From positions 1 through 27,755 of the IMG/VR virus record IMGVR_UViG_3300025314_000080: a stretch of 27,755 nt of DNA, one strand, 5' to 3'. The notes below the pieces were generated by a model. That model was given only the letters and a program-made list of their open reading frames with translations. It ran no database searches and was not told the origin of the DNA. The DNA comes from a virus. Positions 8,410-27,691 of the stretch are shown here, piece by piece; position 1 is the stretch's first letter; each line of letters opens with the position of its first letter. A program made the translations under genes and the position numbers.

Positions 8410-9009
8410 ATGAGATTTATCAGTCCGCACGCGAACTACAGGATTGTGCTGGTGCATGAGGAGGTGGAACGGCTCGCGGACGGGTCGATGCAGGTGAAGC
8501 CGAAGGAGCGTGCTGAGACGGAGTTCCCCCGCGGATTCGTCGCGAAATTCCAGCGAAACGACTACACCGATTTCGAGAAGCAGGTTGCGTACGACAGGTT
8601 CGGTGCGGCGCTCAATAAGGGTGGTCGACTACGGGACGACATGGTGACCCCGGTGTCGAACGACGACAGGATTGGTACGTTCGACACGCACCAGATTCAG
8701 GATCCGAAGTTGCGCGCACGGGTGGAGGAACTGTTGATTTCCCATGATCAGCACGGCCGTGATTTCCTGCTTGTGGAGCAGCCGAAGGTCGGGAAGCCGT
8801 GGCCCCGGTATGACGAGTTGCGGGCGGCGGGCCGACGGACGGTGGAGATGGTCGCAGAGTCGATCGTCGCGAAGGTTCGCGAGGACGGGTACTCGCCGGA
8901 TGATGTGCTCGCCTACGAACGGCAGAACCTGAACCGTCAGGAAGTCCTCGAAGCCTTGGAGGAGTTGGTGCGGGTGCCGGAGGAGGATGGGGTGGAGGTC
9001 ACTGCTTGA
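8410..9009 (+). CDS. Unknown head-region protein
   Basis: The product is 199 residues with no family I recognise. The first half is mixed alpha/beta with basic and aromatic residues (SPHANYRIVLVHEEVERL, then PRGFVAKFQRNDYTDFEK). The second half is helical and ends in a very acidic tail (LEELVRVPEEDGVEV). There is no membrane segment. It is the first gene after the capsid terminator and is preceded by AGGGAG at 8398-8403, 6 bases before the ATG. Its position is where decoration or head-completion proteins often lie, but the sequence does not prove this. The stop overlaps the TTG start of the glycosyltransferase gene. Confidence 0.75.
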   Translation: MRFISPHANYRIVLVHEEVERLADGSMQVKPKERAETEFPRGFVAKFQRNDYTDFEKQVAYDRFGAALNKGGRLRDDMVTPVSNDDRIGTFDTHQIQDPKLRARVEELLISHDQHGRDFLLVEQPKVGKPWPRYDELRAAGRRTVEMVAESIVAKVREDGYSPDDVLAYERQNLNRQEVLEALEELVRVPEEDGVEVTA

Positions 9010-10037
9010 CCGACTCGCTAGCCACGTACTGGGCACAGGCGACAGCCGGCGTCAACTACTACCGGGCCAGGCTGCCTGCCCGTCACTTGCCGGGCACGGT
9101 AGTGAAACTGACTCCCGCGGACCTGCAACCTGGAGACCAGGAAGGCGAGTACCGGTTCCCGAGGCAGGAGGGGGAAACCGCTATCTGGTTGTTTCCGGGC
9201 AACACGACCCGAGCCCTGTTGATCGCGCAGATGAAATCCCAGGGGATACGGGTGCTCGCCGAAGCGGATGACAACTACTTGTTGCATCCGCCGCTCAACC
9301 TTTCGGATTGGCGGGAACGATTTGACGGCTCCGATCGCCATTCATACGAGGTGTTTTCTAAGGTTAGTAAGTTCGTGGACGGGATGATCGTCTCCACCCC
9401 GAAACTCGCCGAGGTATACGCACACCTGAACTCGGAGATCCACGTGTGCCGCAACTCGGTTGACCCAGATGATTGGCCTGAGCCGACGCATCAGAAGGAC
9501 GGGATTCTACGGATCGGCTGGGCCGCCTCGGACTCCCACGTGTACGACGCCCCTCTGATCTTGGACGCCCTGGAATGGGCAAGCAGACAGTCGAACGTAG
9601 AAGTGGTGATCATCGGGATCCACCCGGACTTCGCGCGTTACCGTTTTCCGTACCGGCACGTCGAATGGACTGACTCTCTCTCCCAGTACCGGCGTAATGT
9701 CGGTCTACTCGACGTGATGTTGTGTCCGCTCAGGCAGGGGGAATGGGAGGACTGTAAAAGTGACGTGAAGGCGCTTGAGGGAGCGATGGGTGGTGCCTGT
9801 GTCGTCGTGTCGAAGGTGGAGCCGTACCGGCCATGGTGGGATGGGGAAGCACCCGGCTTGGTTGCTGAGCATTCGTGGGACTTCAAGAAGATCGTCAAGC
9901 ATCTTGTTAGAAGTCCCGAGGAGGTGCTGATGCTCGCCCGAGCGGCTCGTGAGTACGTGCTCGAGCACAGGGATATCAAGCGTACCGTCTCGGCGTGGCG
10001 GGAAGCTGTGAGGGTTGAGGAGAGGGTGGCGGCATGA
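9006..10037 (+). CDS. Glycosyltransferase, GT-B fold (GT4-like)
   Basis: A 343-residue enzyme that probably moves a sugar from a nucleotide donor to a protein or glycan. The N-terminal half is a Rossmann-like domain (AIWLFPGNTTRALLIAQMKS, then GIRVLAEADDNYLL). The C-terminal domain opens with LRIGWAASDSHVYD, the usual glycine-rich start of the donor-binding half, and carries LDVMLCPLRQGEWEDCKSD with Lys251-Ser252-Asp253 and Glu258 (KALEGAM), the family's donor-binding helix. A C-terminal helical segment is rich in Arg and Glu. TTG start overlapping the upstream stop; the ATGA stop overlaps the next gene. Acceptor and sugar are unknown. The context suggests virion glycosylation. Confidence 0.85.
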   Translation: MTDSLATYWAQATAGVNYYRARLPARHLPGTVVKLTPADLQPGDQEGEYRFPRQEGETAIWLFPGNTTRALLIAQMKSQGIRVLAEADDNYLLHPPLNLSDWRERFDGSDRHSYEVFSKVSKFVDGMIVSTPKLAEVYAHLNSEIHVCRNSVDPDDWPEPTHQKDGILRIGWAASDSHVYDAPLILDALEWASRQSNVEVVIIGIHPDFARYRFPYRHVEWTDSLSQYRRNVGLLDVMLCPLRQGEWEDCKSDVKALEGAMGGACVVVSKVEPYRPWWDGEAPGLVAEHSWDFKKIVKHLVRSPEEVLMLARAAREYVLEHRDIKRTVSAWREAVRVEERVAA

Positions 10038-10291
10038 AAACAACGTCGTGCCGTGAGCGACACATCGCCTACGTAAAGAGCAGGACTGATTGGCCCAAGC
10101 ACTGGCGTGCCCAACTCTTGCGCGAGATTGAGTTGGTGTCGGACGAAACGCTCGCGGATTCTCGTTCACTCTCGTGTGTAGGGAAGCACTGGGTTCCGCG
10201 ATACGTCCCAATTGGGCGGATGTGTCACTACTGCGGTTGGACGAAAGCACGGCGGGAAGCTGTCGGAGTGAGGGAGCGGGTGGCAGCGTGA
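10034..10291 (+). CDS. Small basic protein with Cys/His cluster
   Basis: This 85-residue basic protein is not one I recognise. Cys48, His52, Cys64 and Cys67 (the last two as CHYC) could bind one zinc ion, in the stretch SCVGKHWVPRYVPIGRM onward. The N-terminal half is helical and basic (RTDWPKHWRAQLLREIEL). It is wedged between the glycosyltransferase and the nucleotidyltransferase with 4-base overlaps at both ends (ATGA and GTGA), so it is probably made in step with them and may be a partner of the cassette. That last point is inference. Confidence 0.7.
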   Translation: MKTTSCRERHIAYVKSRTDWPKHWRAQLLREIELVSDETLADSRSLSCVGKHWVPRYVPIGRMCHYCGWTKARREAVGVRERVAA

Positions 10292-10710
10292 GCGTCTGCT
10301 ATGTGGGAGGCACATTCGACCTGTTCCACCCAGGTCACGTGAACATTCTCCGTAGCGCCGCCCGATACGGAAACGTCGTCGTTTCCCTCAACCGGGACGA
10401 GTTCGTCACACGGTACAAGCGCCCGCCGGTCATGACCTTGGAGGAACGGTGGGCTGTCGTCGACGCCTGCCGCTACGTCAGCAGCGTGATCGTCAACGAT
10501 GACGACGAGGACTCCACCCGGGCGATCCTGGGCGTGAAGCCGAACTACCTGATTCATGGGTCGGACTGGACGGGGCTGCCCCTGTATGCGCAGATGGGGG
10601 TCACGGAGGCGTTTCTGGCGAAGCACCAGATCGTAACGGTGCATCCGCCATACACGCCTGGGATCTCCACGTCGGAGCTGATCGAGAGATGCCGAGCGTC
10701 TGGTTCGTGA
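10288..10710 (+). CDS. TagD-like cytidylyltransferase
   Basis: It would activate a phosphorylated polyol or sugar by coupling it to a nucleotide (CDP-glycerol type chemistry in TagD), supplying a donor for transferases. The 140 residues show GGTFDLFHPGHVN with the His14-x-Gly-His17 catalytic motif, a central ERWAVVDACRYV segment, HGSDW, and GISTSEL from residue 125, matching the GISTT nucleotide-binding motif of the family. The Arg that usually opens that last motif (RTxGISTT) is Tyr122 here. The frame stays open to 10174, but GTG at 10288 gives a 4-base overlap and the right domain start. The family also includes adenylyltransferases, so the exact substrate is uncertain. Confidence 0.85.
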   Translation: MSVCYVGGTFDLFHPGHVNILRSAARYGNVVVSLNRDEFVTRYKRPPVMTLEERWAVVDACRYVSSVIVNDDDEDSTRAILGVKPNYLIHGSDWTGLPLYAQMGVTEAFLAKHQIVTVHPPYTPGISTSELIERCRASGS

Positions 10711-11417
10711 TCCCTGCCTGGGGCCGCGTTGCTCTGTCCGCCGTCTGTTTCCAGGAGCTTCGCTGGGCGCTCGATCATCTGCCTGGGGCGGACGGATACG
10801 CGGTCGTCATCGCCGATGACGGAAACATCGACATAGCCAGGAAGCTCGGGTTTCACACCGTGACGCAGGCGTCATCGCCACTCGGCAGGAAGTACAACGA
10901 TGGCTTTCAGTTCGCGGCTAACTGTGGTGCGGATTACGTGGTTCCGGTTGGCTCGGACAACTGGATACTCCCCCGAACCGTGTTCACAGAACTCCCCGCA
11001 AATGACGAGATTTTCACATCCAGGCAACACGCGATGGTCGACGAAACAGGGACACGGTTGGCCAGGTTGAGCGTGATGGATCAGTTCAACCGTTACGGTG
11101 CCGGCCCGTTCGTGATCCCCGCAGAGCTTCTGAAAGCGTGCGGGGACAGGCCGGCGACGGACGAGGCGGAGAACGGGATTGACGCGAGTACCATCTCCAA
11201 TCTAACCGGGGCGAACCCCGGGGCGAGGCTCACGTTCAGGGAGATCGATCATCTCGCCTGGGTCGGCTTCAAGAGCCACCTGAACCTGCACTCGTTCGAT
11301 CAGTTTGAGCACTTATGGGAGTCAGTGGGGCCGGAGCCGTTCTGGCAGCTCGAATCTCTCTACCCGGAGAACGTTGTTCTCGCCGCTGAGGAGTTCTACA
11401 GGTGCGAATCGCGGTGA
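10689..11417 (+). CDS. GT2-like glycosyltransferase, GT-A fold
   Basis: A 242-residue protein with the start of a GT-A fold: WFVIPAWGR, then YAVVIADDGN with Asp43-Asp44 for the nucleotide, LGRKYNDGF at 65-73, and VVPVGSDNWILP with Gly-Ser-Asp-Asn at 88-91 in the place of the DxD metal motif. The C-terminal part is less typical and has no clear catalytic base. It overlaps the nucleotidyltransferase by 22 bases and the next transferase gene by 16 bases. No membrane helix is present, so it works on a soluble target or at a membrane by recruitment. Activity, donor and acceptor are unknown; the single Asp in the DxD position makes me less sure that it is active. Confidence 0.75.
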   Translation: MPSVWFVIPAWGRVALSAVCFQELRWALDHLPGADGYAVVIADDGNIDIARKLGFHTVTQASSPLGRKYNDGFQFAANCGADYVVPVGSDNWILPRTVFTELPANDEIFTSRQHAMVDETGTRLARLSVMDQFNRYGAGPFVIPAELLKACGDRPATDEAENGIDASTISNLTGANPGARLTFREIDHLAWVGFKSHLNLHSFDQFEHLWESVGPEPFWQLESLYPENVVLAAEEFYRCESR

Positions 11418-11956
11418 TCACCCCCACCATCCCGGAGCGCGCCGACATGCTCGAGGAGTGCAAAGCCAGTGTGCGCGCCCAAACGTTGCAACCAGTCGAG
11501 CACCTGATCGAGCTGGACGAGAAGCGCACCGAGAGGTGCGGCCCCCAGCTCAACAGGATGGCGAAACGAACGGACTGCGAGTGGCTAGCCACGTTGGCTG
11601 ACGATGACCTAATGCTCCCCCATCACTTGGAAACCCTGGCGGCTCACACGAATGAGGCGGATGTCATCTACTCCTATTGTGAGGTGACCGGTCGCGGCTG
11701 GTCGCCTAACACTCCGTACGACCCGGATGCGGACATTCCGCAGATTCCGGCCACCGCTCTGATCCGTCGGTCATTGTGGGAAGAGGTCAGGTGGGGGAAA
11801 GAGCAGCGGGCAGAAGACAATGAGTTCTGGCGGCTCTGCCAACAGAAAGGCGCCCGCTTCTTCTGCGTTCCCGAAATCACGTGGGTTTACCGGTTCCACG
11901 GGCACAACAAGAGCCTGTTTGCTTCCCATCTCGACTTTTGGGAGGGGGTCCCATGA
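11402..11956 (+). CDS. GT2 family glycosyltransferase
   Basis: A 184-residue compact GT-A domain: RIAVITPTIPERADMLEE at the start, LIELDEKR, then LATLADDDLMLP with Asp67-Asp68-Asp69 as the DxD metal-binding motif, and RAEDNEFWRL with Glu137-Asp138 as probable catalytic base region, followed by WVYRFHGHNKS. These are the usual GT2 landmarks in the right order, though the protein is shorter than most bacterial members and lacks a C-terminal extension or membrane helices. GTG start inside the upstream gene, ATGA overlap downstream. With its neighbours it forms a four-enzyme cassette. Confidence 0.85.
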   Translation: MRIAVITPTIPERADMLEECKASVRAQTLQPVEHLIELDEKRTERCGPQLNRMAKRTDCEWLATLADDDLMLPHHLETLAAHTNEADVIYSYCEVTGRGWSPNTPYDPDADIPQIPATALIRRSLWEEVRWGKEQRAEDNEFWRLCQQKGARFFCVPEITWVYRFHGHNKSLFASHLDFWEGVP

Positions 11957-13486: not shown

Positions 13487-13918
13487 ATTTCCGAAATCAT
13501 CCCAGATGAGGGGCTCGACCTGCTCCTCGGCCAGTTCCCGAAGAACTCAACCAGGCAGACGAGCTGCTGGCTGTGCCTGTTCACGTCACAGACAGCGTCG
13601 ACGGTGATCACGTCCGGTCAGACGATGGCCGACATCACCGAGACCGTGTTCACGAACTACGCACGGCAGGAGCTCACAACCGCGACGTGGGGGGCGGTGG
13701 CCGCCGGCACGGGCGGGCGGAAGACGACGTATTCGCAGATCACGTTCCCGACCGTAGGGGCGACCGGCGCGACGATCAACGGCCTCTTCCTCAGCGACAT
13801 CCTTTCGACGACCGGCGACAAGTGCGAGGGGGCGGCGAACTTCGACGACGTGACCGCCGTGGTCCTGGCCACAAATGATATCATTAAAGTCACGCCCAGC
13901 TTCCAATACAATTCGTAA
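13487..13918 (+). CDS. Small virion-like protein, probable ATT start
   Basis: If read from ATT at 13487, the product is 143 residues. The N-terminus, [17 protein letters not shown], then CWLCLFTSQ, follows a pattern I know from small phage tail or head proteins (a PxxGLxxLL segment, then a short strand with xLF). The rest is Thr/Gly/Ala-rich beta structure ([17 protein letters not shown]). The first conventional start in the frame is GTG at 13604, which would cut off that conserved segment. A G-rich stretch (AGGGGGGG, 13471-13478) lies 8 bases upstream of the ATT. The alternatives are UAA readthrough from the upstream gene, or a base change from ATG. Confidence 0.65.
13874..13885. promoter_or_regulatory. 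12-bp AT-rich perfect palindrome
   Basis: AATGATATCATT reads the same on both strands. It lies near the 3' end of the small virion gene, 54 bases upstream of the HNH -35 box, in a locally AT-rich patch of an otherwise GC-rich region. An operator is possible, but no partner protein is shown. Confidence 0.3.
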
Positions 13919-13938
13919 ACTCCCGCAAATTGGCATGT

Positions 13939-13967
13939 TTGACGGCCACCCGCTCACCTGCTATATT
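13939..13967 (+). promoter_or_regulatory. Sigma70-type promoter of HNH gene
   Basis: TTGACG (13939-13944) and TATATT (13962-13967) are separated by 17 bases. The A of the HNH start codon at 13974 lies 7 bases after the -10 box, where transcription would begin. There is no ribosome binding site. This predicts a leaderless mRNA, a form common in actinobacteria. Confidence 0.7.
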
Positions 13968-13973
13968 AATGGT

Positions 13974-14444
13974 ATGGCAGCTACATGGTTCAAGGATGGA
14001 TCAGGTCAGTGGTGGTATCAAGACTCCCGTCAGCGGCATCGAGGCGAGGAGCGCACCTGCCTTCAATGCGGGAAGACCTTCCCGTTCATTGTGGGCAGAA
14101 CGAAGTTCCAACCTGGCACCTTCTGCTCGCGAGCATGCGCGAATCGGGCTGACAAGGTTGGCCGACGTCTGCGAGGGTTGGCGGCCAAAGGGTCGTACAT
14201 CGATACAAATGGGTATCGGCAAGTGCTTGTAGGGGAAGTAGGTAAGGGAAGACGTTCGTACCGCCCTGAGCATCGTGTGGTGATGGAGCGCGAGCTCGGA
14301 CGTTCCCTTGGATCTCACGAGACCGTGCATCACTTGAACGGCGACAAGCTGGACAACCGCATCGAGAACCTCGAGCTATGGATAGGCAACCACGGTAGGG
14401 GTGCGTCCTCGCCGCATTGCCCGACGTGCCGGTGTTTCGATTGA
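13974..14444 (+). CDS. HNH endonuclease with N-terminal zinc finger
   Basis: A 156-residue enzyme of the free-standing HNH type that would cut DNA at a recognition site and may spread by homing. N-terminal Cys ligands (CLQC at about residue 28, and CSRAC) form a zinc finger. The catalytic region is [19 protein letters not shown] followed by [18 protein letters not shown], with paired His, the Asn-Gly-Asp turn and the final Asn-Leu-Glu, as in the HNH_3 family. The frame is open to 13875 but that would overlap the upstream gene. The promoter and lack of a binding site fix the start at 13974. It interrupts the virion gene block and has its own terminator. Target site unknown. Confidence 0.88.
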
Positions 14445-21366: not shown

Positions 21367-24300
21367 TTGCCGCCTTCCGCTAAGGATCGGCGGCAAGCCG
21401 CAGCCGCAGCCCGCAAGAAACGGGCTGTCAACGTCAATCCGCGTGTCCCGGCCAAGATAAAGCAAGCGCGCACTCGCGCGTTCCTCGCGCAGGCGACCCC
21501 GGACGCCTCCTGGCTCGCCCGCAACCCCGGACTGACCCGAGCGCCGCTCACCACGGTTGGTGGGCCTGCCGCCCTGGACAGCAAGCTCAGGAACGAAGTG
21601 CTCGCCTGGGAGCAAATGCGCCGACAGGCAACCCTGGCGCAGAAACGGGGGCAGTTCGTTGGGCGGCCTGTCGCTCTCGCTGCCGCCCCACGGGGGGCGC
21701 TTGGCTCCCAGTTGAAGGGGTTCGCGCAGGAAGGGTCCGCGATGGCTGTCGGCCCCTCCCTCGCCTCCTATCTGCCGGGCGGCCCTAAACCGTACTTTGA
21801 CCCGAAGGATGTGGCGCTCGGCCTCGTTGGCGTGTTCCCGTTCGGCAGGGCCGGGAAGCTCCTACGCGCAGGAGCCCCGGCCACACGAACTCTCGCACAC
21901 GCCGGTTACTCCGCCACCATTCCGGCCGCCGGCTCCCTGATCGGACGTGGCATCGAGAACCTCTCCTGGGCAGCCCGAACCGGTACCAGCAAGACGAAGA
22001 AGATCGCGTCCGAGATCCAACGGACGTCGAAGAACGTGTCGTTGGTGAAAGCCTCCCCGGGGGAGGCGCTTCGTAAGGTCGGAAGGAAGCTCCGTGCTGA
22101 CCAGCAAGTCGCCCTGCGCCTCGTCGCGGAGGGCGTTCCGATCGACGAGCAGATCGCGTACTACACGAAGCAGGCGACTGCGGCGGCTGTGCGCGGCGAC
22201 AAGGACTCAGAGTTGGCACATCGGTTGCATATCGCGCTGATCCAGGCGGCCCGGAAACACTTGCTGGACTTGCCGACCGGGCCGACGTTGCAGCCGTCGA
22301 AACGTGTGCTCGCGCAGGCGTGGGGGTTGCTTGAGAAGACGTCCGGGACGAGAGAGGAGATCGCGAAATCCCTGGGGCGTCTTACTGAGGAGGGAATAGC
22401 CGCCCGAATCCAGATGCCAGGTCGCATCGTCAAGGGCGCAAAGTTCTACTCGCGGGGTGATGCGAAGGCGGACATTCGCCAGCACATTACTGGAGTCCGT
22501 GCGCTCGAGTCGGACATCATCACTGCGGGCAAAGGTGAAGCTCGGGAGCTTACGCGCAGTGCTTCCCGTGTGTCTGCCCGTGGCGAGCAGTTCCGGCGGG
22601 AGGCCGAACGGATTGGTATTAGCACAGCCGAATGGGACAAGGAGATCGCGCGCACATTCGCTGCGGGCTCCCGAGCTAGGGGCGCCAGGATTCGTGTTGC
22701 TGACAGACTTGAGCGGCAGCAAGCAGCACTCAGTCGGGCACAGGATGCGCTTGAGAACGCGATCACGGCCACCCGAGGGTTCACTGCCGCTGACATCGCT
22801 CGTCGTATCGCACGTGTGAACGCGATTCGCAAGAGCCTGAAGCTGACGAAGGCGGAAGCGGACGTTCTGCGCCGGGAGGGTGCGGAGGTTACGCAGTGGC
22901 ACGAGCTGGCGGGAGCGATGGCTGATACTGAACTCGATCGGATGGTCGGCTCGTTGCGCCGCGCTGTGATCGCGCTCGAATCGGCCCGGGGCACGAGTAG
23001 GGCGTCGCGTGAGCAGGCGGGTCGGGTGTTGACTGAGGCTGAGGGCGCTGCGGCCCGCATCCGTTCTCAGGGTGTCAAGGTAGCTCAGGGGATCAGGGCG
23101 CGTGGAGGCACCATCACCGGCGCCGAGGGCTTCTCGGGAGGCAAGGTGTACGTTCCCGAGGCGCGAGGAGTGCCCGGCTCCACTGTTGTGAGCCCCAGGT
23201 CCGTCTCGTTGCAAGCTGGCGCGATCATCTCCGGCGGCTGGCGCAGGGGTATCACCGCCCTCGGACGTGACCCGTCTCTTACGCACGCCTACAAGGGTGC
23301 TCTGAAAGAGAGCGGACTCTTCCGCACCGACGTCACGAACCTCAGCGCGAGCGCACTCGCGAAGGCGATCCGACTTGACTCGATCAAACGTCTTCGGGAC
23401 ATCCTGCTCACAGGTGCCCGAGACACCCCCGATCCGGCTCACCTGGACGACTGGGTAGCGATCAAGGTAGACCCGACCAAGGATCTTCCGGGTGCGCTCA
23501 AGTCGTTTTGGGACCGTTGGGAGAGTAAGGCCGGGTTCACCGGCAGGGAGATGGAACGGCTCGGTGACGATACGGCCCAGACGCTCCGGGACGCTCTCTT
23601 CCCGAACATTCCGCCCAGCCTAGAGCCGATCGCGAACATCAAATGGGTTCCGAAGGCGATGGTCGACAAGATCGGAATGTTGAACCCGTTCGCACTCAAG
23701 TTCCCCGGCAGCCAAAGCATCGGGACGCGGGCTCTCAAGGGCAGCGTCGACGTGTACAACGACCTCGAACGGTTCGCGATCCTATTCCTGAACCCAGCGT
23801 ACGGGCCGGTCAACTTCCTCGGAAACACCGCCATGAACCTGTTCCAACAAGGCGCGTTCCTGCCTGCCAACTGGATCAAGTCTGTGCGGCTAATGACGAA
23901 GATGAAAGCGGAGAACGTCGTCGCCCTGGACGGGGTAATCGGCAGAGGCCTGACCGCCACGTTCAGCCCAATAACAGCTGGAATCAAAGGCGTTACAGCC
24001 CCCGTTGGCGGCGCGATCGGCACCCTCACCGACCTTCTCCCCCGGCGTGCCGCGTTCTTCCACGAAGCGCGCAGGCAGGGATATCGGACGCACGCAGAGG
24101 TAGATGCCCTCTTCGACGCCGCCCGCTCCGGCGACGAAGTGGCAATGGGAAACGTCGACCAGATCGCCCGTCGCGGTAACGACGCGATCATCGACTATGG
24201 ACGCCAAAGCCCGGTCGAGCAGCACATCATCGGCCGCATCCTCTTCTTCTACCCGTGGGTCAAGGGCGCAAGCCGCTACACCTACCGGTTCCCCCTGGAA

Positions 24301-25299
24301 CACCCCTACCAGGCTGCTGGCCTCGGTTACGGTGGCTACAAGACGAAAGAGTACGCGGAAGAGAAACTCGGCGAAGACCGCCCCTGGTACACGCAGTTCG
24401 ATGTGCCGCTCCCCGAGGGGCTGGCCGAAGAGTTGAACAAGCTGGGGGTCGGCCGAGAAGGAATGCCACTTGTGATCGGCCTCCGCCAACTGTTCCCGCA
24501 AGCTACCGCAGTCGAGCTGGCTCAGTCCGTGTACGGGTTCGCGACCGGTTCGACCGACATGCCGCAACTGGCGGAAAGTCTGACCCCGGCCATCGGCAAC
24601 ATCGTTACCGCCATCACCGGGTACGACACGTTCAAGCAGAAGGAAGTCGGCTCCGGTGCTCGCACTTTCCTACGGCAAAGCTACGAGACGCTCCCCCCTG
24701 TCCGCTTCTACAAGGGGCTCACGGAGGAAAAGTCGAAGCAGGCGTTGTACCCGCGCACCAAGACGGACGAACTGATCAGGATCGGCCTAGGCGGCCTCGC
24801 CCCGAAGCCATTCAACCCTGAGACCGCCAAGAGGATCACGACCGGCGACAGGGGAATCAGCACGGCAGCGCGCAAACGCGCGCAGTTCGTCCGCGACAAC
24901 CCTGATCTGATCAACCCTGGTTACTTGCCGTACGCGGTCAAGTACCGGCAGATGTACGAAGGCGTACTCGCCGGGCAACGGTCGCTCGCGGAAGGACTCG
25001 GGATCAAGGTTGGCGACAACACGTACGAGTCTGGTGACCAAGGGTTGACGCCGAAGCAGGAGTACGCGGTCAAGCTCGCCGTTCTCAAGCAGGTACGCCC
25101 GGACGTGCTCACCCCCGAGCTTGAGAAGAACTTCACCGCCTACTTCAAGCCCGACAGCACAGACCCGGAAGTCGCCAAGTGGTCTGAGGCGTTCAAGACG
25201 TGGATCAACGAACGACTCAGGTTCAAGGACGAACTGGGGTACGGGATCGACTACCTGATCGACAAGGCACGAGAGAAGAAGAAGCAGCTTGCTGGCTAG
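21367..25299 (+). CDS. Large internal/ejection virion protein candidate
   Basis: At 1310 residues this is the longest gene. It has a basic Ala-rich start (DRRQAAAAARKKRAVNVN), a long Ala/Arg/Glu coiled region at about residues 360-580, and hydrophobic stretches at about residues 804-838 (NPAYGPVNFLGNTAMNLFQQ) and 857-892 (GLTATFSPITAGIKGVTAPV), followed by FFYPWVKGASRYTY. The hydrophobic parts could insert into a membrane during DNA entry. The C-terminal end is Lys/Glu-rich. No lysozyme or polymerase motif is visible. Length, position before the lysis genes and composition fit the largest ejection protein of a short-tailed phage. TTG start one base after the upstream stop. The function is inference. 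Confidence 0.7.
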   Translation: MPPSAKDRRQAAAAARKKRAVNVNPRVPAKIKQARTRAFLAQATPDASWLARNPGLTRAPLTTVGGPAALDSKLRNEVLAWEQMRRQATLAQKRGQFVGRPVALAAAPRGALGSQLKGFAQEGSAMAVGPSLASYLPGGPKPYFDPKDVALGLVGVFPFGRAGKLLRAGAPATRTLAHAGYSATIPAAGSLIGRGIENLSWAARTGTSKTKKIASEIQRTSKNVSLVKASPGEALRKVGRKLRADQQVALRLVAEGVPIDEQIAYYTKQATAAAVRGDKDSELAHRLHIALIQAARKHLLDLPTGPTLQPSKRVLAQAWGLLEKTSGTREEIAKSLGRLTEEGIAARIQMPGRIVKGAKFYSRGDAKADIRQHITGVRALESDIITAGKGEARELTRSASRVSARGEQFRREAERIGISTAEWDKEIARTFAAGSRARGARIRVADRLERQQAALSRAQDALENAITATRGFTAADIARRIARVNAIRKSLKLTKAEADVLRREGAEVTQWHELAGAMADTELDRMVGSLRRAVIALESARGTSRASREQAGRVLTEAEGAAARIRSQGVKVAQGIRARGGTITGAEGFSGGKVYVPEARGVPGSTVVSPRSVSLQAGAIISGGWRRGITALGRDPSLTHAYKGALKESGLFRTDVTNLSASALAKAIRLDSIKRLRDILLTGARDTPDPAHLDDWVAIKVDPTKDLPGALKSFWDRWESKAGFTGREMERLGDDTAQTLRDALFPNIPPSLEPIANIKWVPKAMVDKIGMLNPFALKFPGSQSIGTRALKGSVDVYNDLERFAILFLNPAYGPVNFLGNTAMNLFQQGAFLPANWIKSVRLMTKMKAENVVALDGVIGRGLTATFSPITAGIKGVTAPVGGAIGTLTDLLPRRAAFFHEARRQGYRTHAEVDALFDAARSGDEVAMGNVDQIARRGNDAIIDYGRQSPVEQHIIGRILFFYPWVKGASRYTYRFPLEHPYQAAGLGYGGYKTKEYAEEKLGEDRPWYTQFDVPLPEGLAEELNKLGVGREGMPLVIGLRQLFPQATAVELAQSVYGFATGSTDMPQLAESLTPAIGNIVTAITGYDTFKQKEVGSGARTFLRQSYETLPPVRFYKGLTEEKSKQALYPRTKTDELIRIGLGGLAPKPFNPETAKRITTGDRGISTAARKRAQFVRDNPDLINPGYLPYAVKYRQMYEGVLAGQRSLAEGLGIKVGDNTYESGDQGLTPKQEYAVKLAVLKQVRPDVLTPELEKNFTAYFKPDSTDPEVAKWSEAFKTWINERLRFKDELGYGIDYLIDKAREKKKQLAG

Positions 25300-25397
25300 C
25301 GTCGGCCTCGGCTACGGCCAAAGTCATAAGCGATGACCATGGTCCCAATCCAGAAGACAATCGCGACCAACACCCCAATCCTGTCTAGGACGGACAT
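25296..25397 (-). CDS. Possible 33-residue single-span membrane protein
   Basis: The minus strand encodes MSVLDRIGVLVAIVF, then WIGTMVIAYDFGRSRGRR and a stop. Residues 7-24 form a hydrophobic helix and the tail is strongly basic, a typical small membrane protein. It nearly fills the 118-base gap between two + strand genes, and its stop overlaps the upstream gene's stop as the shared CTAG. Upstream on the minus strand are TTGACA, a 16-base spacer and TATGCT, placing transcription start within 3 bases of the ATG (leaderless). No ribosome binding site is needed in that case. It might be a holin regulator next to the lysis genes, but function is a guess. It is also the only minus-strand gene, and chance is possible. 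Confidence 0.45.
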   Translation of the reverse strand: MSVLDRIGVLVAIVFWIGTMVIAYDFGRSRGRR

Positions 25398-25406
25398 GAC
25401 GGACGG

Positions 25407-25434
25407 AGCATACTCCGATGGCTAAGCGTGTCAA
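25407..25434 (-). promoter_or_regulatory. Possible minus-strand promoter overlapping lysin start
   Basis: On the minus strand, TTGACA (complement of 25429-25434) and TATGCT (complement of 25407-25412) are 16 bases apart. The -35 box is a perfect match and the -10 box matches at four of six bases. It spans the ribosome binding site and start codon of the lysin gene on the + strand, so the two activities could interfere. Confidence 0.4.
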
Positions 25435-26527
25435 CACCATCCGCCTGACTCGCCAAATCCAACGCTACCTGACGTCGAAGCGGTCACCCCTAGCCCCCTA
25501 CGCCGCCAGCATTGTCCGGGCAGGCCAACGCTACGGCGTCGACCCCCGGTTGCTCGTCGCCATCGCCGGTGCGGAAACCTCGTTCGCCACCAACCCCAAA
25601 GCCGGCCAGGACATCACCACCGGTCACAACGCCTGGGGGTGGGGGCCACACATCGCATTCCCCTCCTGGGAAGCGAGCATCGACACTGTGGCCCGCGGCC
25701 TTCGCAAGGGCTACCTCGATCAGGGGCTCACCACAGTCCCCCAGATCGGCCGCAAGTGGGCACCGTTGGGGGCGGCGAATGACCCGAACTGGCTGAACAC
25801 CGGCTGGGCCGGAAACGTGTCAGCCGTGATGAACCAGTTGGGAGCGGGGGGGGCGGTCGGCCCTGGGGCTGTCCCTTTCGGACCCGCGCCTGGCTCACAA
25901 GCCGCTACCCCTGGCTCCCCCGCATCCGCCCCAGGGTTTGACCGTAAAGGATTCGCCCTCGCCACGTTAGGGCAGATTGCGCAGGGCACGTATGACCCGA
26001 TACGGATGCTCATGGAAATGCCCAAGTTCCACACCGGGGCTCCGAAGGCCGGAGCTGCCCCACGAGTCCGGGCTGGGAAGCCGGTCAGGATCGGGAACCT
26101 CATCGCACCAATGACAACCAAGGTCACGAGTGGCAGTGAGTTCGCGTCCCCGGACGCTGAAGGCGCACCGGCCGCGAACGGCACCCGCTACCACGCTGCG
26201 AAGGACTGGTTCGCCCCCGCCGGCTCAGCCGTGTTCGCCCCGATGGACGGGATGATCGTGGAGGTGAAGCCGAGCGTCGGCACGAGCGGCCAAGTCTACG
26301 GTGGTGTCGTCAAAGTCCAGGGGGCAGACGGACGGGTGTTCGTGTTCCGCCACGTCAACCCGCGCGACTTCAAGGTCGGACAGCGGGTGCGAGCCGGGGC
26401 GCAGATCGCGACCGTCAGCCCGTGGACTGGGGGATCACCGCATAGTCACATAGAGCTTTGGCAGACGCTGGAAGGCGGATACGTTTTCGAGAATCTTCGG
26501 GATCCGATGAGCGTCTTCGGAGGATAG
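25418..26527 (+). CDS. Two-domain endolysin: lysozyme-like plus M23 peptidase
   Basis: A 369-residue peptidoglycan hydrolase. Residues 25-115 form a lytic transglycosylase or glucosaminidase-like domain (RAGQRYGVDPRLLVAIAGAE with Glu53 as likely acid, NAWGWG, then SIDTVARGLRKGYLDQG). A Pro/Ala/Gly linker covers about residues 140-175. Residues 235-365 are an M23 (LytM-type) zinc endopeptidase with His259-x3-Asp263 (RYHAAKD) and the second motif His342-x-His344 (SPHSHIELW). It should cut both sugar backbone and peptide bridges. No signal peptide. GGAG lies 9 bases upstream of the ATG. The gene could also act in the virion, since such pairs occur in tail hydrolases. Confidence 0.9.
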   Translation: MAKRVNTIRLTRQIQRYLTSKRSPLAPYAASIVRAGQRYGVDPRLLVAIAGAETSFATNPKAGQDITTGHNAWGWGPHIAFPSWEASIDTVARGLRKGYLDQGLTTVPQIGRKWAPLGAANDPNWLNTGWAGNVSAVMNQLGAGGAVGPGAVPFGPAPGSQAATPGSPASAPGFDRKGFALATLGQIAQGTYDPIRMLMEMPKFHTGAPKAGAAPRVRAGKPVRIGNLIAPMTTKVTSGSEFASPDAEGAPAANGTRYHAAKDWFAPAGSAVFAPMDGMIVEVKPSVGTSGQVYGGVVKVQGADGRVFVFRHVNPRDFKVGQRVRAGAQIATVSPWTGGSPHSHIELWQTLEGGYVFENLRDPMSVFGG

Positions 26528-26535
26528 GAGACACG

Positions 26536-27198
26536 ATGCCCAAAACGCCCAACGAACGGACCCTAGCCACCCTGCGCTTGCGCGTCGGTTGCCACGAGAC
26601 CCCGGCCGGGACGAACAACGGGCCGTGCGTGAACGAGGCGCAGGAGCGCACCTGGCTTCGCGTCCCCGGCCCCGGGCAGCAGGGCTGGCCGTGGTGTGTG
26701 GCCGAGTTCCAACTGACCGTCTGGAAGGTGTTCGGGAAAGAGTACCCGCGCGCGACGGCTGAGGTATGCGACTTAGCCGACGATGCCCGTGAGCGCGGCC
26801 TAACCATCCCGAAGGAGATGGCGAAACCCGGCGACTGGCCGTGCCTCGGCTGCGACCACATCACCTGCCTCGTCAGCCGGGATGCGGCGACCGGCACGTT
26901 CGTCGGCCTTGGAGGGAACCAGTCCGACGCCGTACAGGAGAGCACCTACCAGTGGTCAAGGGCCACGGTGGTCATCTCCACCATGCGGCTTGCCGCGCTC
27001 CTCGAGGGCGTGATTGCCCCCGTACCGCCCGTCAAGCCCAAGAGACGGCCCGTCTACCAGGTTGTGCGGGGTGAAGGCGAGAAGGCGAGGATCGTGTACA
27101 CGTCCCCATCTCTGGACGCCGCCGCCTCGAAGGCGGCTGAGCTGATCCGCAAGGGGGCTCAGGGGGCGAAACTGATCAAGAGGCCGCCGAAGCCGTGA
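26536..27198 (+). CDS. CHAP/NlpC-like cysteine peptidase (second lysin candidate)
   Basis: The 220-residue protein has the order Cys54 (GWPWCVAEFQ), His108 (CDHITCLVS) and Asn128 (GLGGNQSDAV), a Cys-His-polar arrangement as in CHAP and related amidases or endopeptidases. Preceding parts resemble amidase starts (GCHETPAGTNNGPCVNEAQE). A 45-residue C-terminal module (about 170-215, RRPVYQVVRGEGEKARIVYT) looks like a SPOR-type beta/alpha wall-binding domain. The frame is open to 26458, but ATG at 26536 has AGGAG 5 bases upstream (26526-26530) and starts after the lysin stop. With the other lysin it gives two hydrolases of different chemistry. Confidence 0.78.
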   Translation: MPKTPNERTLATLRLRVGCHETPAGTNNGPCVNEAQERTWLRVPGPGQQGWPWCVAEFQLTVWKVFGKEYPRATAEVCDLADDARERGLTIPKEMAKPGDWPCLGCDHITCLVSRDAATGTFVGLGGNQSDAVQESTYQWSRATVVISTMRLAALLEGVIAPVPPVKPKRRPVYQVVRGEGEKARIVYTSPSLDAAASKAAELIRKGAQGAKLIKRPPKP

Positions 27199-27458
27199 GC
27201 GTTCCACCGGTGAACGGCGGGGTAGCGTCCACCCTCCGTGCCCACGAGCGGCGTCTCGACAAGCTCGAGGACACCCAGCCGGCAGTCCTCGCCGAACGAG
27301 TGCGGATCCTCACCACTAGTACTCACAGTGAGATGGGCGCGCTCTGGAAAGAGCTGCGGCTGGTGAAACGCGCCCTATGGGCGTTCGTGATCGTGATCGT
27401 CGTTCTCGCCGTTCCTGCGATCGCAATGATGGCGACGATGATCGCCGACCGAGGATGA
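27195..27458 (+). CDS. Single-span membrane protein, holin candidate
   Basis: The 87-residue protein has a charged helical N-terminal part (residues 11-56, AHERRLDKLEDTQPAVLAER) and one C-terminal transmembrane helix (about 61-83, LWAFVIVIVVLAVPAIAMMA). A coiled coil with a membrane anchor beside endolysin genes resembles small phage holins, although many holins have two or more spans. GTG start in a 4-base GTGA overlap with the peptidase, and ATGA overlap with the next gene. The role is inferred from position. Confidence 0.7.
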   Translation: MSVPPVNGGVASTLRAHERRLDKLEDTQPAVLAERVRILTTSTHSEMGALWKELRLVKRALWAFVIVIVVLAVPAIAMMATMIADRG

Positions 27459-27691
27459 CCCGGCTCACTGTTGCCTTGATCTTGGCTGCGGTCCTGATCA
27501 GCCTAGGTGCTGCCGCGTTCGGGTACACGCTGCTCCAGATGCGACACGCACGGAATGACAACCGGGCTGCGATCTGCGAACTCCGGGACGCCAGCATCGA
27601 CATTCTCGTCCTCGCCCGCGCGACCCCGACCAGGGAGATCGGCTTCTACGAGCTCAGCATCGCCCGGTTGCACAGGATTAGTTGCCCGTGA
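27455..27691 (+). CDS. Small membrane protein, lysis module
   Basis: The 78-residue protein has an N-terminal hydrophobic segment (residues 4-26, LTVALILAAVLISLGAAAFG) followed by a basic, soluble tail with two Cys (ICELRDASIDIL, RLHRISCP). It may be a membrane-anchored lysis partner such as a spanin-like or second holin component; no lipobox or known motif is seen. The frame is open from 27377, but ATG at 27455 gives a 4-base overlap with the upstream gene. Confidence 0.68.
   Translation: MTRLTVALILAAVLISLGAAAFGYTLLQMRHARNDNRAAICELRDASIDILVLARATPTREIGFYELSIARLHRISCP

Follow-up and report, generated by a model that had tools for sequence, protein, structure and literature searches.

Between a large late gene and a peptidoglycan hydrolase gene of the virus record IMGVR_UViG_3300025314_000080 lies a gap of 118 bases, which raises the question of whether a small membrane protein is encoded there on the opposite strand and what such a protein would do. 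The window, i.e., the whole stretch of DNA analysed, is 27,755 nt long, and its convincing genes all lie on the plus strand, with the sole exception of a minus-strand candidate (microORF; 25397-25296). A first-pass annotation had taken this candidate for a leaderless membrane microprotein gene forming a compact lysis-timing switch. Here, we report that the microORF is probably a real accessory gene, and that the switch finds little backing. The features involved are as follows.

21367..25299, plus strand: large late protein of 1310 aa, upstream neighbour of the microORF, likely an internal virion or ejection protein
25296..25299, both strands: CTAG common to two opposing TAG stops, those of the microORF and of plus-strand gene 21367-25299
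25296..25397, minus strand: microORF of 33 codons, ATG to TAG, a single-span membrane microprotein frame encoding MSVLDRIGVLVAIVFWIGTMVIAYDFGRSRGRR
25404..25417, plus strand: CGGAG-CATA-CTCCG hairpin directly before the lysin ATG, with the lysin Shine-Dalgarno inside
25407..25434, minus strand: promoter-like TTGACA-16-TATGCT, with the -10 ending 9 nt before the microORF ATG
25418..26527, plus strand: peptidoglycan hydrolase ("lysin") with an SLT/glucosaminidase-like N-terminus and an M23 peptidase C-terminus, endolysin or virion-associated
26536..27198, plus strand: probably another cell-wall hydrolase, weakly matching TIGR02594 below the cut-off (E 1.5e-5)
27195..27458, plus strand: 87-aa holin-like candidate with a C-terminal transmembrane (TM) segment (hydropathy 2.81)
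27455..27691, plus strand: 78-aa holin or accessory lysis candidate with an N-terminal TM segment

The microORF product has one strongly hydrophobic segment (hydropathy peak, 2.09) and a basic tail, and was modelled by AlphaFold as a single helix (residues 3-29; pLDDT, 88). The frame for the 33-residue single-span protein that had been read in the gap is thus there, as is the stop overlap with the opposing gene, and no other convincing minus-strand gene was found within the window, as had also been claimed. Credible homologues were absent from phages, Pfam, PHROGs, and NCBIfam: there was no Pfam match and no NCBIfam holin match, and the best PHROG was an Rz-like spanin (E 0.18). The 1310-aa upstream protein likewise had no solid match in Pfam.

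The claimed TTGACA/TATGCT promoter-like site is present on the minus strand (25434-25407, 16-nt spacer) and was the best of four sigma-70-like matches in 20 kb of the window; because 2.7 such matches are expected by chance, the promoter is not significant alone and was rejected as evidence by itself. With 9 nt between the end of its -10 and the ATG, transcription is predicted to start at about 25397-25400, approximately 0 to 3 nt upstream, and the message would be leaderless or nearly so; the first-pass annotation was right in this respect, but the exact coincidence of start and ATG that it gave is not retained. No Shine-Dalgarno lies in range of the microORF ATG. In GC-rich bacteria, leaderless genes are reported to be marked by a TANNNT box approximately 12 bp before the start (PMC3160421, PMC3898074), and the microORF combines a TANNNT near -10 to -15 with the lack of a Shine-Dalgarno; its box begins at -15, which is consistent with a predicted start no more than 5 nt from the ATG. 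A scan requiring a T-run found no terminator-like site on the minus strand near 25296, the microORF 3' end.

Related phages were compared at the same junction. The spacing from large late gene to hydrolase gene was -17 to +8 nt in 15 relative contigs (those found with the lysin alignment), and the junction of contig L010 was tight as well, leaving no space for a minus-strand gene. Three relatives have a gap in the lysin region: G003 (L119, also L004) and G010 (L117), both at the same junction, and G020 (L137), one gene later. Each of these gaps contains a convergent microORF of membrane type (59 aa in G003, 36 aa in G010, 33 aa in G020), whose start codon lies 6 to 9 nt after a TANNNT box without a Shine-Dalgarno and whose stop meets that of the upstream gene, by CTAG overlap in G003 and by TAGCTA abutment in G010 and G020. 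G003 is related to the window via the upstream protein (L004/G003, 41% in the best segment), and its 190-base gap holds a minus-strand ORF that was modelled by AlphaFold as a helical hairpin; G010 has the best-matching portal of the other phages (37%). The 33-aa ORF of G020 has an NlpC/P60 hydrolase gene before it and a glucosaminidase-like gene after it, and is preceded by TTGACT-17-TACAGT-6-ATG. The G003 and G010 gaps were met during junction inspection, earlier than any search for membrane ORFs, and both G020 cases (the second is given below) came out of a scan over many gaps.

No clear mutual sequence similarity was found among the microproteins, which also differ in charge and number of spans; judged from their sequences, what is common to them is an architecture, not a protein family. 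Because unrelated, identically built membrane genes occur in three related phages, the window microORF is probably a real gene, and it is mainly through these phages that the leaderless minus-strand membrane gene of the first-pass annotation stands, without its lysis-timing and antiholin part.

No close relative of the window phage covering this junction was found. A near-identical record (L021/G009; IMGVR_UViG_3300025174_000113), with capsid and portal 100% identical, ends before the lysis region; this record probably reaches past the left end of the window. In Brad and Jasmine, cultured Arthrobacter phages whose portals are distantly related, the lysin follows the large gene directly, and no gene at that place fits. 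Tyrosine integrases are encoded by G003 and G010 and integrases also by relatives without the microgene, so that integrase presence was rejected as a separator of the two groups; none was found in the window, a record of only 27.8 kb.

The window also carries glycosyltransferase-like and cytidylyltransferase-like genes (9006-11956), with the capsid on one side and tail genes on the other and with apparent counterparts, judged by eye, in G020 (L137 17660-19480), as well as a 189-aa ORF resembling an HNH endonuclease by sequence (13875-14444) inside the structural gene region.

Dinucleotide shuffles of the window gap gave a minus-strand ORF with a comparable membrane segment and a length of 30 aa or more in 0.25% of cases (P 0.0025), and in 0.1% when the stop also had to abut; the corresponding P values were 0.041 for G003, <0.0003 for G010, and 0.022 for G020. 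The coding signal of the window microORF is weak by itself (codon score, -1.2; synonymous-codon test, P 0.092), and this is one ground for supposing that there is no protein gene here at all, with the gap either noncoding or the promoter of an RNA antisense to the virion gene at its 3' end, and with the ORF arising from the C/A richness of the sequence. Hydrophobic minus-strand frames do arise from an A/C-rich plus strand, and the chance expectation for sigma-70-like sites points the same way, but shuffles that keep composition already yield the low frequencies above (P 0.0025 or 0.001), GC by codon position is canonical in all four microORFs (window, G003, G010, and G020), and the anatomy repeats in three relatives. 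Nor is the RNA fold unusual on either strand: the whole region folded no better than shuffles (z, -0.40) and Rfam gave no match, and a conserved RNA element in the gap was rejected on these grounds. We regard a noncoding gap as quite unlikely. Among the relatives, synonymous codons fit the host contig (G003, P 0.0006; G010, 0/5,000 resamples; G020, P 0.009), and GC by position in the G003 microORF equals that of the G003 upstream gene.

The plus strand offers a competing frame, a 30-aa leader ORF (25333-25425) whose stop overlaps the lysin start and which, if a real coding element, would couple lysin translation. A general codon model favours it over the minus-strand microORF (codon score, 7.4; synonymous P 0.012), but the third positions of the two frames coincide, so the GC3 signal cannot separate them. 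Codon positions 1 and 2 show the canonical GC order in the microORF only (in the leader ORF, GC1 is below GC2: 0.39 and 0.48), and the leader ORF has no Shine-Dalgarno and no equivalent in the G010 or G003 gaps; we consider it very improbable as a functional element.

The architecture was then sought in 1.12 Mb of GC-rich relatives, as opposite-strand membrane ORFs in gaps with TANNNT 6 to 9 nt before the start. Only five matches were returned: the window, G003, G010, G020, and a second ORF in G020 (L137 15197-15349; 50 aa; GTG start), which lies between structural genes and has a near-consensus promoter (TTGTCA-17-TAGAAT-8-GTG). TANNNT at this distance preceded 5 of 17 opposite-strand TM gap ORFs versus 11 of 1,232 other gap ORFs (Fisher, 1e-6; 2e-5 without the window), and a peptidoglycan hydrolase gene is the neighbour in four of the five cases. 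It is tentatively suggested, at just short of an even chance, that these belong to an undescribed class of leaderless, convergent microgenes for membrane proteins that recurs across the late operons of soil phages of the SU10-portal-like type. Its fixed architecture would consist of TANNNT, 6 to 9 nt, a start codon, one or two TM helices, and a stop that overlaps, abuts, or lies near that of the opposing late gene; the class would favour the junction before peptidoglycan hydrolase genes, and its members appear to have no clear similarity to one another.

That preference keeps a link to lysis possible, and four of the five microORFs sit directly before such a gene. The locus could accordingly be a lysis-timing device, comprising an antiholin- or pinholin-type regulator, minus-strand transcription colliding with late transcription, or both, and delaying lysin and holin. 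The minus-strand promoter does overlap the region of the lysin translation start: its -10 box (25412-25407) overlaps the lysin GGAG (25405-25408), and its -35 box falls within lysin codons 4 to 6. From this overlap, correct at the DNA level, a possible block of lysin expression had been deduced; a promoter lying over a ribosome binding site in the DNA does not, however, stop translation. The predicted RNA starts at about 25397-25400, outside the GGAG, and extends in the direction leading away from the ribosome binding site, to which it is therefore not antisense and which it leaves uncovered. An antisense block was therefore rejected, and what is left is head-on polymerase interference: a collision between minus-strand and late transcription is possible and could reduce late expression downstream.

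A single-span protein of this small size would suit an antiholin, but the microproteins differ in topology and the window microprotein showed no holin or antiholin family homology in Pfam, NCBIfam, or PHROGs. Separate plus-strand TM genes occur downstream in the window, G010, G003, and G020, and the two in the window, encoded after its hydrolase genes, are the obvious candidates for holins; the antiholin proposal is not upheld. The SLT/M23 protein of the window may itself be a virion enzyme instead of an endolysin, and the G010 SLT protein has matches among internal virion proteins and tail lytic proteins of cultured phages. The second G020 microORF has structural genes on both sides, so the arrangement is not confined to lysis genes, which speaks against the compact switch. 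We judge a lysis-timing device to be unlikely.

A simpler possible control of lysin is its Shine-Dalgarno hairpin (25404-25417), a perfect 5-bp inverted repeat that forms a local stem in both MFE and centroid structures and also overlaps the -10 box of the minus-strand promoter; translational control of lysin or an operator function is possible for this repeat. The M23 domain of the lysin is 62% identical to that of a protein encoded by an Archangium MAG (L005 4479-5441), and the N-terminus of this protein is peptidoglycan-binding-like.

The reading that we favour, at roughly an even chance, is that of a moron-like accessory microgene, set backwards in the late operon, leaderless, and giving a small membrane protein made apart from late transcription. 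Antisense orientation to the lytic genes and a separate promoter, as found in one prophage locus, have been called typical of moron loci (PMC7067206), and the moron-like reading is favoured for this reason. As in morons, the gene separates two genes that stand next to each other in relatives (15 tight contigs versus inserts in the window, G003, and G010), and it has its own promoter, on the level of sequence (TTGACA-16-TATGCT and the TANNNT enrichment). We infer its transcription, translation, topology, expression time, and function alike, as follows. A host sigma-70-type polymerase would start at TTGACA/TATGCT, and the leaderless or nearly leaderless message would be translated without a Shine-Dalgarno. 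The product, 33 residues long and with a basic tail, would cross the membrane once, probably N-out and C-in. Expression would be independent of late transcription, either early or, if the phage is temperate, continuous in the lysogen. The microprotein would alter the host envelope, e.g., to exclude superinfecting phage; superinfection exclusion or a change in the host envelope is its most likely role.

If such genes are real, gene callers requiring a Shine-Dalgarno or at least 50 codons would tend to miss them, and phage late regions may therefore hide a layer of tiny membrane accessory proteins. The architecture is a searchable signature, and candidate peptides for exclusion or lysis modification become accessible to simple tests.

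Among known systems, leaderless TANNNT genes (PMC3160421, PMC3898074) resemble the four lysin-region microORFs, with TANNNT at 6 to 9 nt and no Shine-Dalgarno, and the box is found in the fifth microORF also; the window box, however, begins 15 bp upstream, slightly beyond the usual 12. Antiholins and holin-like proteins of actinophage lysis cassettes, as described in PMC9671378 and PMC13056207, are likewise small TM proteins beside hydrolase genes, but are located within the cassette, whereas the microORF is convergent with a promoter of its own and had no match in any holin family searched. Morons such as lambda bor and lom and STMMW_20121 of Salmonella prophage ST64B (PMC7067206) share with it the extra antisense gene among late genes with its own promoter, and commonly have membrane or envelope products. 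Unlike them, the present case is a leaderless microgene of 33 aa whose stop overlaps the upstream late stop, with no terminator seen and no sequence relation.

Superinfection-exclusion proteins of the Sie, Ltp, and HK97 gp15 types are small membrane proteins. Pseudomonas phage Fc02 encodes an exclusion protein of 7.9 kDa (PMC9936078). All of these are larger than the microprotein, occupy another genomic slot, and have no homology to it; the likeness to the predicted microprotein is that they too are small, phage-encoded, often membrane-bound, and made outside the late programme.
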